Shown: one piece after another, positions 6,075 to 64,000 of the stretch
How positions within the stretch are numbered: the stretch's first letter is position 1
How the letters are laid out: each line of letters opens with the position of its first letter
Assembly: GCA_949317995.1 (NCBI GenBank)
Contig: OX439048.1
Location: 27,905,495 to 27,969,494, forward strand
Direction of reading: 5' to 3'
Origin: Acholoe squamosa
Lineage: Eukaryota > Annelida > Polychaeta > Phyllodocida > Polynoidae
DNA: 64,000 bases
Translations under genes and position numbers: made by a program
Notes under the pieces: generated by a model
Database searches by the model: none
Seen by the model: the letters and a program-made list of their open reading frames with translations, nothing else
Told to the model about the DNA's origin: nothing

Positions 6075-6591
6075 AGGATTCACCACCACCACCATCACCA
6101 CCACCACACTACTCCCGCCCCTCACACACATTCCAAGGAAGGCAATAACAGGTCCACCACCACCACCACCACCACTACTACCACCAACCCTGCAGTAGGA
6201 AAGCACCACTATTCTGTGCTTGACTGATTTGCATATTTTAATCCAGGTATAGGTATACTCCATACTAAACCTGTGGGACAGGATTATACATGGAGAGAGA
6301 GCAAGCACCACATTCACGGGCATGTCTTGAATGGCATGATGCAATCTCAGCACCATTGATCTTAATATGAATATGCACGGCATTACAGCAGTGCTGTGCT
6401 TTACTCTGCAGATAATAGGGTATAAATTTCTAAATGGTAAAATGCAAGGATAATAAACTGCATTTAGATTCCATATTCAAAACATGATCTTTGATCCTAA
6501 AATCATAATAACTTGGTCATAGATCTTAGATCCTAAATTTTCAATTGAATCCTTAACATAATCTCCTAACCATTGACCCCTTGTGTTGGGG
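6075..6591. repeat. Duplicated segment, right copy (partner 2,065-2,766)
   Basis: The copy starts with two expanded (CCA)n tracts (about 6,079-6,107 and 6,152-6,186) and ends at CATTGACCCCTTGT, where similarity to the left copy stops. A 188-codon minus-strand frame (5,817-6,383) crosses it. Its runs of Val and Gly are the translated CCA/CCG-type repeats, so it is not counted as a gene. Confidence 0.85.
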
Positions 6592-30562: not shown

Positions 30563-30802
30563 CTAGATCCTCATCTTTCTGTACAGGGTAACAATTCCCG
30601 AAAAAGACTGGGTTGAAGTACCTGAAGTACTCGCAATAGGAGACGTAGTCGTAGTACCTTCCATACCAGCATGACCAGCCCCTGACGTGCCAATGGTCTC
30701 ATTGGAGTCATGCATCTGAATGTCAGATCCATCCTCACTTATAGTATGTTTCCTTCTAGTATTTGGACCTTTCTTGCCCTTGTTTTCCTTCTGATCACTC
30801 AT
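30563..30802 (-). CDS. Short Lys/Ser/Thr-rich frame after a splice acceptor; retroelement-like 5' end candidate
   Basis: Not recognised as a named family. The 79-residue frame starts with MSDQKENKGKKG; residues 1-20 are basic (KGKK, RRKH), and about 35-68 are Ser/Thr/Gly-rich. I chose the internal Met at 30,802 because TTTCTTACAG on the minus strand ends at 30,810, seven bases upstream of it, an acceptor-like signal. The longer frame from 30,835 would read through that signal. Upstream on the same strand are four 80-bp CpG-rich repeats and a promoter-like region. The layout matches the plus-strand locus at 62.6-64.0 kb. The frame ends early, so this is either a truncated copy or a first coding exon whose donor I cannot place (CAGGTACTT near 30,635 is one possibility). 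Confidence 0.4.
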   Translation of the reverse strand: MSDQKENKGKKGPNTRRKHTISEDGSDIQMHDSNETIGTSGAGHAGMEGTTTTSPIASTSGTSTQSFSGIVTLYRKMRI

Positions 30803-30809
30803 TGTGAAT

Positions 30810-30819
30810 CTGTAAGAAA
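30810..30819 (-). promoter_or_regulatory. Candidate 3' splice site before the 30,802 start
   Basis: On the minus strand TTTCTTACAG ends at 30,810 and is followed by ATTCACAATG. The pyrimidine-rich run plus CAG fits the acceptor consensus. It parallels the acceptor placed one base before the ATG at 63,602. I could not identify its donor. Confidence 0.45.
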
Positions 30820-30892: not shown

Positions 30893-31245
30893 TGGTCAAT
30901 CGGTCCCCGTAGCGGCCGTGTGCTCGTCTCCGTGTTAACAGAGAGACTCGCCGAAACCAGCGGCAAAGTTTTCCGCCGCTCGGTCAACGTAACGGGCGCG
31001 CGCTCATCTCCGTCTTAACCGAGAGACTCGCCGAACCCAGCGGCAAAGTTTTCCGCTGCTCGGTCAACGTACAGGGCGTGCGCTGGTCTCCGTCTTAACC
31101 GAGAGACTCGCCGAAACCAGCGGCAAAGTTTTCCGCCGCTCGGTCAACGTACCGGGCGCGTGCTCATCTCCGTCTTAACCAAGAGACTCGCCGAAACCAG
31201 CGGCAAAGTTTTCCGCCGATCGGTCAGCGTACCGATCGGCCGAGC
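30893..31245. repeat. 80-bp CpG-rich tandem repeat, four copies
   Basis: (G/A)AGAGACTCGCCGAAACCAG begins at 30,941, 31,021, 31,101 and 31,181, exactly 80 bp apart, followed by CGGCAAAGTTTTCCGCCG and a GTCTCCGTCTTAACC-type end. On the minus strand the unit reads GGCGGAAAACTTTGCCGCTG then GTTTCGGCGAGTCTC. Its order of CGGCG, TTGCCGCT and G(A/G)GTCT words matches the 77-bp unit at 63.1-63.6 kb. The block lies between a promoter-like region and the 30,802 start, so I read it as leader or intron sequence of a minus-strand transcription unit. Confidence 0.93.
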
Positions 31246-39997: not shown

Positions 39998-41121
39998 AGC
40001 GCGGCGACTAGTGAGTACTACTTGTGAGATGAGTAGACTAGTGTATGGTTCACAGTCGCCACGGTGTAAGGGATAGGGAGGCCTTGCAATCTATTTTTGT
40101 TTGTGGCTCCTCTGCTATGGACTATTCCTGCTCACTATTCTAATGTAATAACAACAGTGTGTGTACTTTACTTATCAGTGAAGGAATTTTCAGAATATAT
40201 CTCATACTTTTGATTTTATTCGCAGATAAGACATTTCATCATTTGGAGCCCTATGGCAGATTAGCATTAGAGCATTTTAAGATTCAGAAATGCATCCCTG
40301 TAGCCCTTGTTTTAGAATTGTTCGTTTTGAAACTACTATATATATGTAGTACAGGTTTTATCTCAGTGGGTTATGGTAAAATTGGATCATATTTTCTGTA
40401 TTTGAACAAAGTATTCACTGTCAAAGATCTCTATGGAGAAATCAGTGCTAAAGTGTGTGTTGCCATATGTGCATTTTTGTAAATCAGAGGAGGTTGAAGT
40501 GTAAGGCCACCTTGTGGAACTGCCACATTCTTTTCTGTGTAAAGTTTTTAGTTTACATTGAAATAATGCTTTCTCAGAATATGTATCTACTATTGGTGAT
40601 GAAAGATTAATTTGATTACTCCTTTCATCATATAAACGATTTTGTGGAACACTAAAAAGATGTATGTACTTACACTGTGCTCCCCCTCTACAGAGAGGTG
40701 GAGTGATCTGGCCGGTTTGCTGACCACTGGCCTGTGACGAGGTACAGAATATTACAAGTGATTGGCAGTTGGGTGTGTGTGTGTGTGGGGAGGGGGGGGG
40801 GCAGAGCAGGCTCCTGGCAATCTGAGACAGTGTACACTCATAATGACACACCTGTTGACTATGGCATTGAACATTGAATAAGACAGGTCCCTGTGGCAGC
40901 TGAGTGAGGTGCATGCAGAATGAAGTCTACAGACTATTAGTACTTAGCTGCAGTGGGTAGTTCAGGTTGAATTTGTGCTATATACTACCAAAAGCCCAGA
41001 TGATAGTATGCCCTATCTGTCTCACCAACTGAAACTAGACACAAGATTACAAGTCGCCGCGCCATGTCTCACAGAACTATTCTCTACTATTGTATTAAAA
41101 TCTACAACCCTATGGTTTTAT
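39998..41121 (+). mobile_element. 1.12-kb interspersed repeat, copy 1 (partner 49,334-50,463)
   Basis: Near-identical to 49,334-50,463 over its whole length. It starts GCGCGGCGACTAGTGAGTAC; AGTCGCCGCGC at 41,052-41,062 is the exact inverse of the first 11 bp, but similarity between copies continues 59 bp beyond it. The first 70 bp also fold on themselves (GGCGACT with CAGTCGCC). A 107-codon frame (40,159-40,482) has a Leu/Ile/Phe-rich N-terminal part. Its three differences from copy 2 all change the amino acid, so there is no sign of protein selection. Superfamily unknown. Confidence 0.9.
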
Positions 41122-49333: not shown

Positions 49334-50463
49334 AGCGCGGCGACTAGTGAGTACTACTCGTGAGATGAGTAGACTAGTGTATGGTTCACAGTCGCCACGG
49401 TGTAAGGGATAGGGAGGCCTTGCAATCTATTTTTGTTTGTGGCTCCTCTGCTATGGACTATTCCTGCTCACTATTCTAATGTAATAACAACAGTGTGTGT
49501 ACTTTACTTATCAGTGAAGGAATTTTCAGAATATATCTCATACTTTTGATTTTATTCGCAGATAAGACATTTCATCATTTGGAGCCCTATGGCAGATTAG
49601 CATTAGAGCATTTTAAGATTCAGAAATGCATCCCTGTAGCCTTTGTTTTAGAATGGTTCGTTTTGAAACTACTATATATATGTAGTACAGGTTTTATCTC
49701 AGTGGGTTATGGTACAATTGGATCATATTTTCTGTATTTGAACAAAGTATTCACTGTCAAAGATCTCTATGGAGAAATCAGTGCTAAAGTGTGTGTTGCC
49801 ATATGTGCATTTTTGTAAATCAGAGGAGGTTGAAGTGTAAGGCCACCTTGTGGAACTGCTACATTCTTTTCTGTGTAAAACTTTTAGTTTACATTGAAAT
49901 AATGCTATCTCAGAATATGTATCTACTATTGGTGATGAAAGATTAATTTGATTACTCCTTTCATTATATAAACGATTTTGTGGAACACTGAAAACATGTA
50001 TGTACACCGAGGTACTTACACTGTGCTCCCCCTCTAGAGGTGGAGTGATCTGGCCGGTTTACTGACCACTGGCCTGTGAGAGGTACAGACTATTACAAGT
50101 GATTGGCAGTTGGGTGTGTGTGTAGGGGGGGGGGCGGGGGGCAGAGCAGGCTCCTGGCAATCTGAGACAGTGTACACTCATAATGACACACCTGTTGACT
50201 ATGGCATTGAACATTGAGTAAGACAGGTCCCTGTGGCAGCTGAGTGAGGTGCATACAGAATGGACAGTCTACAGACTATTAGTACTTAGCTGCAGTGGGT
50301 AGTTCAGGTTGAATTTGTGCTATATAATACCAAAAGCCCAGATGATAGTATGCCCTATCTGTCTCACCAACTGAAACTAGACACAAGATTACAAGTCGCC
50401 GTGCCATGTCTCACAGGACTATTCTCTACTATTGTATTAAAATCTACAACATTATGGTTTTAT
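49334..50463 (+). mobile_element. 1.13-kb interspersed repeat, copy 2 (partner 39,998-41,121)
   Basis: Same sequence and orientation as copy 1, with a few percent difference, including a changed poly-G/TG tract near 50,113-50,145 and a short insertion near 50,005. The left end is GCGCGGCGACT; the right inverted motif carries one change (AGTCGCCGTGC). The 107-codon frame is kept at 49,495-49,818. The flanks are unrelated to those of copy 1, so it is an interspersed repeat. No matching target duplication is visible. Confidence 0.9.
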
Positions 50464-61689: not shown

Positions 61690-62590
61690 ACCCCTGACCC
61701 CTGGCTACAATGGGACTGCACCTCTATGTGATACTAGTGCCTCACATCCTTTAGCCCTAATCCCCTCACCCCCACCCGATCCTCGTTCTACCCCAAGGGG
61801 ACGTTACATGCATTACCTGCTTTCAAAATTACCACATTGTACTCTGATTGTCGGGGCTCTAAAATCAAACTTTATTTTTTTTTAAAAGCTGGCACACTTT
61901 TGTCTTATAAAGTTATCCCTTTTTCACTAAGTTACATACACGTGCCTCAGTCATCATGAATATCGTTGAAATCCACTGATGTTCTTGAGATAAAAATGAC
62001 CTCCATTATTATTTCAGTGACCATGGTCACTAAAATACTTGATAGTATGGAGAAACAACGACATGCTACCCTGCCTCACAAATATTTTGTTTTTGTGGCC
62101 CATAGGCTTAGCCATTGAAGCAACAAACCAATTGCCATTAAAGTTATATAGAGTATCAAGCAGATCTACCACAGCTGTGAAAACGAGCCAAGGTGGCCCA
62201 TACACCTGGCTGTCATCTGCACGAATATTTTGGGTACATCACAAACTTTACAAAGAGAAAATGTGCACATAACTCATGTAAAGCACCCATAACTCGTGCA
62301 GATAGGACTGGGGAAGCAGTCACGTGACCATTACTACACTTCAATAGTACACGACCCACTAATAGCCCCTCAGGCTCATACTTCTGTCTCCAGTCTCCTG
62401 GATGTAGCCCTAACCTATACAAAGATATAACATTGCAGTACACGACCCCCTTATAGTCCCATGATTTAGTGTGTTATATAGCTATTTTTAATAAATACAG
62501 GCCTTTTAATAGAAATAATTCATAATTGCTGCATTCATGCATCCTATTGGTATCATATAAGTTGATTAACATGGAAAATTTTACCTCGGG
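61690..62590. other. Intergenic, nothing recognised
   Basis: AT-rich DNA with no supported gene. It separates the minisatellite from the CpG-rich leader at 62.6 kb. Confidence 0.5.
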
Positions 62591-62599
62591 AATACCTAG

Positions 62600-62695
62600 G
62601 GTATTTCCGGAACCGATGAGATACGACCGAAGCTGGTCACGTGACGACAGTTTGGATCGAGCGTCCGTTTTTGGCAGACGGTTTGAAACTTCCAG
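62600..62695 (+). promoter_or_regulatory. Promoter-like region and presumed non-coding first exon of the edge gene
   Basis: TTCCGGAA (62,605-62,612) matches ETS-type sites, and the palindrome GTCACGTGAC (62,636-62,645) is a strong E-box of the USF/CLEAR type. CpG density rises sharply here. The presumed first exon ends in ACTTCCAG at 62,695, immediately before GTGAGT. The transcription start cannot be placed. Confidence 0.5.
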
Positions 62696-63600
62696 GTGAG
62701 TTTTTTGTTGTTTTCACCCGTTTTACTGCCCTTTTTTGGGCAGTTTTTGCCCTATTTCAAGGGTTTTTGTTCTTGTTTGTGTCTAGCCAGGGTTACGCCG
62801 TTGGGGTACCCTTTTAGCGCTAGAAAATAAAGTTTTCTCTCAAAGACGGTCGTCGTGTCGGCGGGCCGTAGAGAGATTTTACATTTTTACAACTTCCTGG
62901 AGGAATTCCGCTGGAATTCTCTCGTTACAGGAATCTTACAGGGGCTCTTGAGCATTCCCTGATGTTATGGCACCTTTTTGCCTTCAGTTTGCACTTTTTC
63001 GGGCAGTTTTTGTCGATACCGATCGAAAAATTGTCCGTTGGGGCTCGCCGAGCACCAGCGCTGTTGTACCTGCGTACTTAGAGTAGGACAACGCGAGAGC
63101 TACCTAAAGTATACCTCTAAGTACATACCGCTCGGCGAGTTTCGCCGTTGCCGCTAAGCGGGTCTGCTCCAGGTACATGTATCTCGTCCTGCTCTAAGTA
63201 CATACCGCTCGGCGAGTTTCGCCGTTGCCGCTAAGCGGGTCTGCTCCAGGTACATGGTCTAGTCCTGCTCTAAGTACATACCGCTCGGCGAGTTTCGCCG
63301 TTGCCGCTAAGCGGGTCTGCTCCAGGTACATGTATCTTGTCCTACTCTAAGTACATACCGCTCGGCGAGTTTCGCCGTTGCCGCTAAGCGGGTCTGCTCC
63401 AGGTACATGTATCTTGTCCTACTCTAAGTACATACCGCTCGGCGAGTTTCGCCGTTGCCGCTAAGCGGGTCTGCTCCAGGTACATGTATCTTGTCCTACT
63501 CTAAGTACATACCGCTCGGCGAGTTCGCCGTTGAGTTACTGCTAAGCAGGTCTGCTCCAGGTAATAGTCTATAATCTTTTTATTTCTGGTCTTTTTCCAG
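62696..63600 (+). other. Predicted 905-bp intron in the leader of the edge gene
   Basis: The donor CCAG/GTGAGT at 62,695-62,701 is a perfect match to the consensus. The acceptor is a pyrimidine-rich run ending CTTTTTCCAG at 63,600. Splicing would place the ATG at 63,602 one base into exon 2 in a good start context (CAGGATGG, with A at -3 supplied by exon 1 and G at +4). Most of its second half is the 77-bp tandem array. Confidence 0.6.
63072..63562. repeat. 77-bp CpG-rich tandem repeat, six copies, with a short inverted partner
   Basis: GTACATACCGCTCGGCGAG begins at 63,121, 63,198, 63,274, 63,351, 63,428 and 63,505 (77, 76, 77, 77, 77 bp). Each unit continues TTTCGCCGTTGCCGCTAAGC and GGGTCTGCTCCAGGTAC. 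The last unit is altered. GTACTTAGAGTAGGACAA at about 63,073 is the reverse complement of the TTGTCCTACTCTAAGTAC junction, giving a potential stem with the array. Every intact unit contains CTCCAG/GTAC, which resembles a splice junction. Confidence 0.95.
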
Positions 63601-63601
63601 G

Positions 63602-64000
63602 ATGGCAAGTACATCTCAGTCCAGTCCCACTGCTGTGGAGAAGGGGAAGAAATCACATAAGAACTCAAGTTCCAGCTCTGCTAGATCTTCATCTAGGCAT
63701 TCTAAGGATAAGGGTGCTGAGAAAGACACTGTGAGTTCAGTAAACTCTGAGAAGGAGCCTGAAGTTCAAACTACTGAGACTCCCAGTGCTCCTGTGCTGT
63801 TGGTCCAGCAGCCACCTCAAAGATGGGCTCCTCCTATGCCCTACTACCAGCAGGGTTATGATTACTATCAGGACCCTTATCAGCCGATGGATTATGCCTA
63901 TGGTATGGATCACATGGCCTACCAGTGTGAACCAGTAGAGGAGGAAGGTCAGGGTTATGTGGTACTAGGCCCACATGGACAGGCACATGCTATGCCAGTA
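63602..64000 (+). CDS. Open, edge-truncated frame: Ser/Lys-rich then Tyr/Pro/Gln-rich protein; gag-like ORF1 or host gene
   Basis: Starts at ATG 63,602, the first in-frame Met after a stop at 63,572-63,574, and stays open for 133 codons to the window edge. Residues 1-50 are Ser/Lys/Arg-rich with a serine run at 22-26 and a basic KGKKSHK (14-20). Residues 50-64 are Glu/Thr/Pro. Residues 70-110 are rich in Tyr, Gln, Pro, Asp and Met (YYQQGYDYYQ), an aromatic low-complexity segment. Residues 111-120 are acidic then Gly/Val. No zinc knuckle, protease or reverse-transcriptase motif has appeared yet. The frame is low-complexity, but the codons are not periodic as in the minisatellites. The spliced leader with tandem repeats and the similar locus at 30.56-31.69 kb favour the ORF1 of a multicopy retroelement (LTR or DIRS-type). 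A disordered host RNA-binding-type protein remains possible. The family is not recognised. Confidence 0.62.
   Translation, partial: MASTSQSSPTAVEKGKKSHKNSSSSSARSSSRHSKDKGAEKDTVSSVNSEKEPEVQTTETPSAPVLLVQQPPQRWAPPMPYYQQGYDYYQDPYQPMDYAYGMDHMAYQCEPVEEEGQGYVVLGPHGQAHAMPV

Follow-up and report, generated by a model that had tools for sequence, protein, structure and literature searches.

Judged from its sequence, the right end of the analysed window holds the 5′ end of a single element belonging to a young family of DIRS1-like tyrosine-recombinase retrotransposons. The window, that is, the whole stretch of DNA studied, spans 64,000 nucleotides (nt) of the Acholoe squamosa genome (C14:27,905,495–27,969,494; genome of 1.48 Gb in 63 contigs). 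Here we report that the leader of this family, referred to as E1, probably acts as a CpG-island promoter-intron, a reading to which we assign a probability of roughly 0.6: spliced RNA would serve for Gag, unspliced RNA would serve as the genome, and the tandem array between the splice signals would be kept as part of the leader. E1 is the first of three DIRS families of this genome considered here, the second and third being E2 and E3. We infer the step from splice signals to splicing, and every function of the array, from the DNA.

The E1 copy of the window, extended past the edge as locus L009 (L009 position p is window position p + 62,005), is about 5.95–5.98 kb long and is bounded by inverted ends. 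Its ORF1 (gag) is followed by a long frame with matches to RT, RNase H, a Dam-type methyltransferase and a tyrosine recombinase; RT and recombinase share one open frame in the window copy and occupy two overlapping frames in another copy. The initial annotation had suggested searching beyond the right edge, and this search yielded a strong RT together with recombinase and RNase H matches that are weak by profile. Profile searches of four E1 pieces gave a match to RVT_1 (PF00078) at 2.4e-21 (76.8 bits, cut-off 29.6), weak below-cut-off matches to RT_RNaseH (0.002), a match to Dam methyltransferase (7.1e-4) also below cut-off, and a match to Phage_integrase (1.2e-4; 22.3 bits, cut-off 27.1) that is weak by profile alone; the NCBIfam ribonuclease H match was weak as well (0.011). 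No envelope or DDE integrase was matched in the four pieces scanned by profile. The recombinase contains an HSTR motif and a downstream tyrosine, read by eye. It had no match at 0.1 in NCBIfam and one irrelevant match (E 0.4) among PDB sequences, and its predicted structure (pLDDT 38) was too poor for use.

The left terminal sequence up to the donor, our proposed exon 1 (62,578–62,695, plus strand), starts with ATTTTACC, where homology between copies begins, and its first part (62,578–62,650, plus strand) is an inverted terminal repeat (ITR), inverse-complementary to the right end. L009 contains three pairs of inverted repeats (570–617/6149–6196, 573–645/6417–6487 and 6192–6291/6449–6548); the segments 6149–6196 and 6192–6291, both close to the right end, are internal complementary regions whose overlap, read by eye, is AAT. 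A target duplication of at least 4 nt is absent in 20 of the 22 copies with both ends (two of the 24 E1 copies lack the right end and are left out of this count); the exceptions are L030, which shares 4 nt, and L032, which lies inside an AT repeat. Two E1 elements stand head to tail with a common terminal junction (L036 right end; C3:63,234,270 and C3:63,240,216), as expected of a circular intermediate or of insertion at an element end.

A first genome search for E1, in which 40 of 569 candidates were scored, returned 55 matching pieces, some copies as two, and 24 copies were analysed. Counting genomic copies of exon 2, another check that had been proposed, gave 283 matched starts in the 1.48-Gb genome. 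This count comes from a looser junction pattern, and among the matches listed (100 of 283) none is mismatch-free; these matches are consistent with intron–exon 2 boundaries, and we therefore take 283 as an estimate of E1 copy number. The initial annotation had offered a retroelement ORF1 or a host gene of unknown family. The former is correct, the frame being gag of a DIRS1-like element, and the latter is ruled out by the 283 exon-2 starts together with the downstream RT and recombinase.

The first 133 codons of gag occupy 63,602–64,000 of the window (plus strand), where they had been described as free of stops, and the frame indeed runs on past the edge, ending after codon 337 in the window copy, 204 codons beyond. 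Among the 22 copies keeping this region, gag has 469–471 codons in 20, 337 in the window copy and 229 in one, and the frame is conserved among E1 copies of this genome. For the two gag segments measured, the ratio pN/pS (22–23 copies) takes values of 0.17 and 0.12, compared with 0.21 in RT, 0.35 in RH-MT and 0.08 in YR; single copies carry one in-frame stop in RH-MT and one in YR. Because pN/pS is low across copies, the gag frame encodes a real protein under constraint, and this constraint starts behind the acceptor. Mean identity to the window copy is 97.8–99.5% in the coding parts and about 95% in the leader. Synonymous divergence in the same 22–23 copies falls from 0.055 at the start of gag to 0.015 in RH-MT, with 0.027 in YR, a pattern that would reflect either mosaic ancestry or additional constraint acting on pol.

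The proposed 5′ intron of the window copy (62,696–63,600, plus strand; 905 nt) begins with GTGAGT and ends with TTTTTCCAG, and both its donor and its acceptor are kept across copies. The splice signals of the initial annotation are present: AG/GTGAGT at 62,696 (slash, splice site), CAG at 63,598–63,600 and ATG at 63,602. Exon 1 is 118 nt long in 19 of the 24 copies and 119 nt in the other five, and GTGAGT is kept in all 24. The acceptor region is deleted in two copies; CAG (CAG/GATGG) is found in 21 of the 22 copies keeping it, and AAG in one. In L022, L032 and L034 the tract before the acceptor is rearranged and still pyrimidine-rich. We ranked splice sites in all families with an approximate PWM. 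By this measure the E1 donor comes first among the 82 GTs of the leader, and none of 500 shuffles of the first 180 nt yields one as good; the acceptor comes first among 62 AGs, and its score is matched in 45 of 500 shuffles of the final 60 nt. Donor conservation is weak as proof of function, since 59 of 330 eight-column windows in the intron part are equally invariant. Pairing 55 of 102 donors with 95 of 283 acceptors gave 39 donor/acceptor pairs, with intron lengths of 505–1035 nt, mostly about 790 or 865.

Exon 1 contains the palindrome GTCACGTGAC (62,636–62,645, plus strand), which we take to be of E-box type; its GGTCACGTGA columns are invariant in the 24-copy alignment, and two copies differ at the final C. 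The E2 and E3 ends carry GCGCATGCGC in place of GTCACGTGAC, presumably an NRF1-type site. E-box-type and NRF1-type motifs are typical of CpG-island promoters. An ATG in exon 1 would be in frame with gag after splicing, and the exon-1 frame is free of stops in 23 of the 24 E1 copies (L010 has one), with the second or third codon changed in three of the 24; the corresponding frame is open and in frame in four of five E3 copies and one of six E2 copies. Its pN/pS of 1.18 in E1 gives no sign of protein constraint; we treat a coding exon 1 as no more than a lead.

Inside the intron lies a 77-base pair (bp) CpG-rich tandem array (63,115–63,563, plus strand; TRF, 5.8 copies, 95% matches). It had been described as six near-identical units; the array is there, with five near-identical units and a degenerate last one. 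Each full unit contains two short inverted repeats, CGGCGA-GTT-TCGCCG and CCGC-TAA-GCGG, and the array has an RNA fold z of −2.64, with none of 100 shuffles as good. Unit similarity is 0.935 within and 0.934 between copies (22 copies); these values being equal, we see no sign of ongoing homogenisation.

The array has a CpG observed/expected ratio (o/e) of 1.19, against 0.41 for the window. Across 20 E1 copies, CpG o/e is 1.64 in exon 1, 1.03–1.17 in the intron, 0.07 in the first 400 nt of gag, 0.22–0.56 in later coding parts, 0.89 in the 3′ noncoding end and 0.45 in the flanks; given the value for the 3′ noncoding end, the leader is not alone in being rich in CpG. Transitions at CpG and at other C/G positions differ little (0.0227 and 0.0173) across exon 1 plus the initial 400 nt of the intron (24 copies; array left out), whereas in the ORF region (20 copies) they amount to 0.0136 and 0.0038, 3.6 times faster at CpG. 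The simplest reading is that the leader would be unmethylated and the body methylated. Like a host gene, E1 combines a CpG-rich start, which seems not to have decayed, with a body poor in CpG. TRF found tandem repeats to be common elsewhere in the window as well. The window also contains two near-identical 112-codon stop-to-stop frames (40,144–40,482 and 49,480–49,818), about 9.3 kb apart, which would mark either a duplicated segment or another repeat.

A second family, E2, is represented in the window by a 5′ fragment comprising the left end, leader and gag start (31,683–30,605, minus strand); it resembles other copies as far as 30,605, and its donor has been deleted. Its leader contains an 80-bp CpG-rich tandem array (30,900–31,234, minus strand; TRF, 4.2 units; CpG o/e 1.55). 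The frame of the E2 gag start (30,564–30,802, minus strand) has its ATG at 30,802 and the acceptor AG at 30,811–30,810, and only 30,802–30,605 is similar to other copies. The initial annotation had held the right end of the window to be its only part with promoter motifs, splice signals and an open frame in the right order. That order does hold there, and the claim to be the only one needs qualifying by this fragment with its own array, acceptor and gag ATG, although its donor has been lost.

A genome search for E2, in which 40 of 1294 candidates were scored, gave 102 matching pieces; L041 is another copy, with gag and RT pieces. E2 and E1 are 51% identical in RT over 205 amino acids and 27.5% in gag over 120. 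The E2 donor, GTAAGTAT, lies 120–131 nt from the end in five of eight copies (window copy included), is deleted in two, one of them that of the window, and is mutated in one. In E2 copies the CpG-rich units measure 80 bp, and the acceptor precedes the ATG by 7 nt. By the approximate PWM the donor is weak, ranking fifth of 67, with 152 of 500 shuffles as good.

The third family, E3, was found with the E2 RT (150 of 19,947 candidates scored), to which its own RT is 75–79% identical. All five E3 leaders (L042–L046) have the donor CTG/GTAAGT 128–129 nt from the end and the acceptor ACAG 3 nt before the ATG. By the same approximate PWM, both sites of L042 rank best of the whole leader, and the acceptor ranks seventh of 49 in one copy. 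In three of the five leaders TRF detected a 101-bp CpG-rich array (2.5–2.6 copies); in L046 it gave a 175-bp unit repeated 1.8 times, and in L045 no array, just an AT run. Judged by these two copies, E3 does not strictly depend on an array. The L042 copy adjoins a 346-codon frame (L042 2–1039, minus strand) that by eye resembles Ty3/gypsy RNase H and integrase.

The E3 unit is part of a tRNA-like sequence (L042–L046, about 1530–1930), which is tandem in four of five copies. Against the Rfam tRNA covariance model (gathering threshold 29), L046 scored above threshold (36.4 and 35.4 bits), and L042 (28.6 bits) and L044 (22.9 bits) scored below it; there was no match in E1 (L001, L002) or E2 (L014, L015), and ARAGORN in bacterial mode found no tRNA in L042–L046. 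The sequence carries Pol III A and B boxes, which we assign by box consensus, one copy having as many as five B boxes. With that consensus the E2 units have an A box with one mismatch, and we found no A or B box in E1 leaders. Shuffles of array sequences do not support the idea that the three arrays derive from a shared tRNA ancestor (five comparisons): dinucleotide shuffles were as good in 15 of 500 cases for E1 and the E3 tRNA-like unit, 40 of 500 for E1 and the E3 101-bp unit, 30 of 500 for E1 and E2, and 215 and 338 of 500 for E2 and E3; a single-letter shuffle of E1 against E2 gave a p value of 0.017.

A comparison of E1, E2 and E3 revealed a common layout: a donor 118–131 nt from the end, a CpG-rich leader and an acceptor 1–7 nt before the gag ATG. 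A tandem array is usual in these leaders, with units of 77 bp (E1), 80 bp (E2) and 101 bp (E3), and is absent in one of five E3 copies. The leader sequences themselves show no similarity better than E 1.5 between E1 and E2 and nothing at E 1 or less between E1 and any of the five E3 copies; E2 and E3 match over about 71 nt of the end and over a further 17 nt at E 0.13. The arrays could be neutral passenger minisatellites expanded by slippage in an unconstrained leader, an account that is compatible with splicing and that we consider rather unlikely. Divergence of the leader (about 95% identity) roughly equals that at synonymous sites of gag (pS 0.040–0.055), as such passengers would allow, and both the frequency of tandem repeats elsewhere in the window and the E3 copy lacking an array point the same way. 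However, passengers would not be expected as non-matching arrays at the same place in three families, all of them within a CpG-rich leader in a CpG-poor window. We favour a function for the array because of the CpG-island composition, the variable unit number and the layout common to the three families, and array and leader may, as first suggested, form an unusual promoter or splicing-control device.

A genome search for junctions gave 102 (E1), 17 (E2) and 97 (E3) matches to the unspliced exon 1/intron junction and none to the spliced exon 1–exon 2 junction in any of the three families, both counts being limited to at most three mismatches, so that more divergent copies of either sort are uncounted. 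As no intronless copies were found, the copied RNA would carry the intron; it appears that either splicing does not occur or the spliced RNA does not serve as template. The zero count is equally expected with no splicing at all. The whole leader would then be a long 5′ untranslated region, with gag reached by re-initiation or through an internal entry site, and the weak E2 donor fits this as well. We nevertheless regard it as unlikely: the E1 intron of L009 contains seven ATGs, and the other leaders counted contain two to seven; donor and acceptor are top-ranked in E1 (L009, L034) and E3 (L042) leaders; and GTAAGT is present in 95 of the 97 unspliced E3 rows, a proportion to be read with the fact that the pattern itself contains GTAAGT and allows only three mismatches.

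In the preferred reading, the leader as promoter-intron, transcription would start within the first ~48 nt of the E1 left end, and the donor would then be transcribed. We place the start within the first 46–48 nt because the left internal complementary region restores only that part. In Dictyostelium DIRS-1, a small part of the left end is missing from the sense RNA (PMC5633606). The leader would then act as an intron whose splicing deletes the array along with as many as seven upstream ATGs, leaves one ATG in exon 1 and brings gag near the cap, which would make the product an mRNA for Gag. Unspliced RNA would be the template for new copies, given that no intronless copy was found. The array would be kept within an unmethylated CpG-island promoter-intron as an enhancer or silencing barrier, a role like that of mouse L1 monomers.

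The array might instead itself be the promoter, again like mouse L1 monomers, with transcription starting within or after it and the upstream donor seldom used. The CpG-island composition of the whole leader, the variation of intron length between copies and the occurrence of CpG-rich tandem units in three families are all compatible with such a promoter, and mouse L1 monomers raise promoter activity (PMC9022269). However, a start in the array would leave out exon 1 together with over 400 nt of the intron; with just 46–48 nt restorable by the left internal complementary region, RNA started there could not remake the element, and we hold an array promoter to be improbable.

Within the promoter-intron reading, splicing may further separate message from genome, with structured, CpG-rich intronic arrays marking the unspliced RNA and keeping the promoter open, and with arrays acquired repeatedly and from different sources, at least once from a tRNA-like sequence; we put this forward as a speculative extension that is quite unlikely to hold as a whole. 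If it does, the mark would act in retention, packaging or priming, through hairpins in E1 and tRNA-like units in E3, and splicing would remove it, so that spliced RNA would not be copied. Retroviral genomic RNA carries structured sequence downstream of the leader donor. To our knowledge, little is known about how DIRS elements control their expression and choose their RNA template. The 216 unspliced and zero spliced matched junctions, with the layout in three families, make it testable whether splicing divides message from genome, and whether the repeat array marks message or genome RNA.

E1 is a member of a known superfamily, whereas its leader layout, found on non-matching sequence in three families, appears to be new: in the literature searched (open-licence papers) we found no DIRS leader intron or intron-borne array. 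As described in PMC3266345, AcaDIRS and LgDIRS of molluscs encode RT and recombinase, as E1 does, and HSTR, found in the E1 recombinase, is printed for 13 of 28 elements. Mollusc DIRS start with ATT and have the circular junction AAT in four of five cases (Table 3 of that paper), as in E1; ITRs are short in both (66–70 bp in four of five mollusc DIRS, ~73 in E1), and both have two internal complementary regions (39–46 and 67–88 in mollusc DIRS, ~48 and 100 in E1). They differ in size, the five mollusc DIRS measuring 4.68–5.81 kb and E1 about 5.95–5.98 kb, and at the right end, where E1 has ...CAAAAT on the plus strand and ATT is printed for four mollusc DIRS, a difference that may be one of orientation. 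The E1 leader, which is ~1 kb long and combines splice signals with a CpG-rich tandem array, is unlike the DIRS descriptions in that text, in which 'splic', 'tandem' and 'intron' have 0 occurrences.

The nearest analogues of the E1 leader that we know from the accessible parts of the sources are mouse L1 monomers and Sirevirus CGG-CCG repeats, neither of them described there as intronic. Like the E1 array, the monomers of the mouse L1 5′UTR are variable tandem units before ORF1 with a probable promoter role (PMC9022269); L1 is a non-LTR element whose monomers are the promoter, whereas the E1 array sits between donor and acceptor. Sirevirus LTR motifs are palindromic, have a CGG-CCG core and form CpG islands, to be compared with CGGCGA-GTT-TCGCCG in the E1 unit, but they belong to plant Ty1/copia LTRs, lie upstream of the TATA box and are not described as intronic in the text available (PMC2829016). 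Finally, in retroviruses the unspliced RNA is the genome and the donor lies in the leader (see also PMC5035971), as proposed here for E1. Retroviral Gag is made from unspliced RNA, whereas in E1 it is splicing that would serve Gag.
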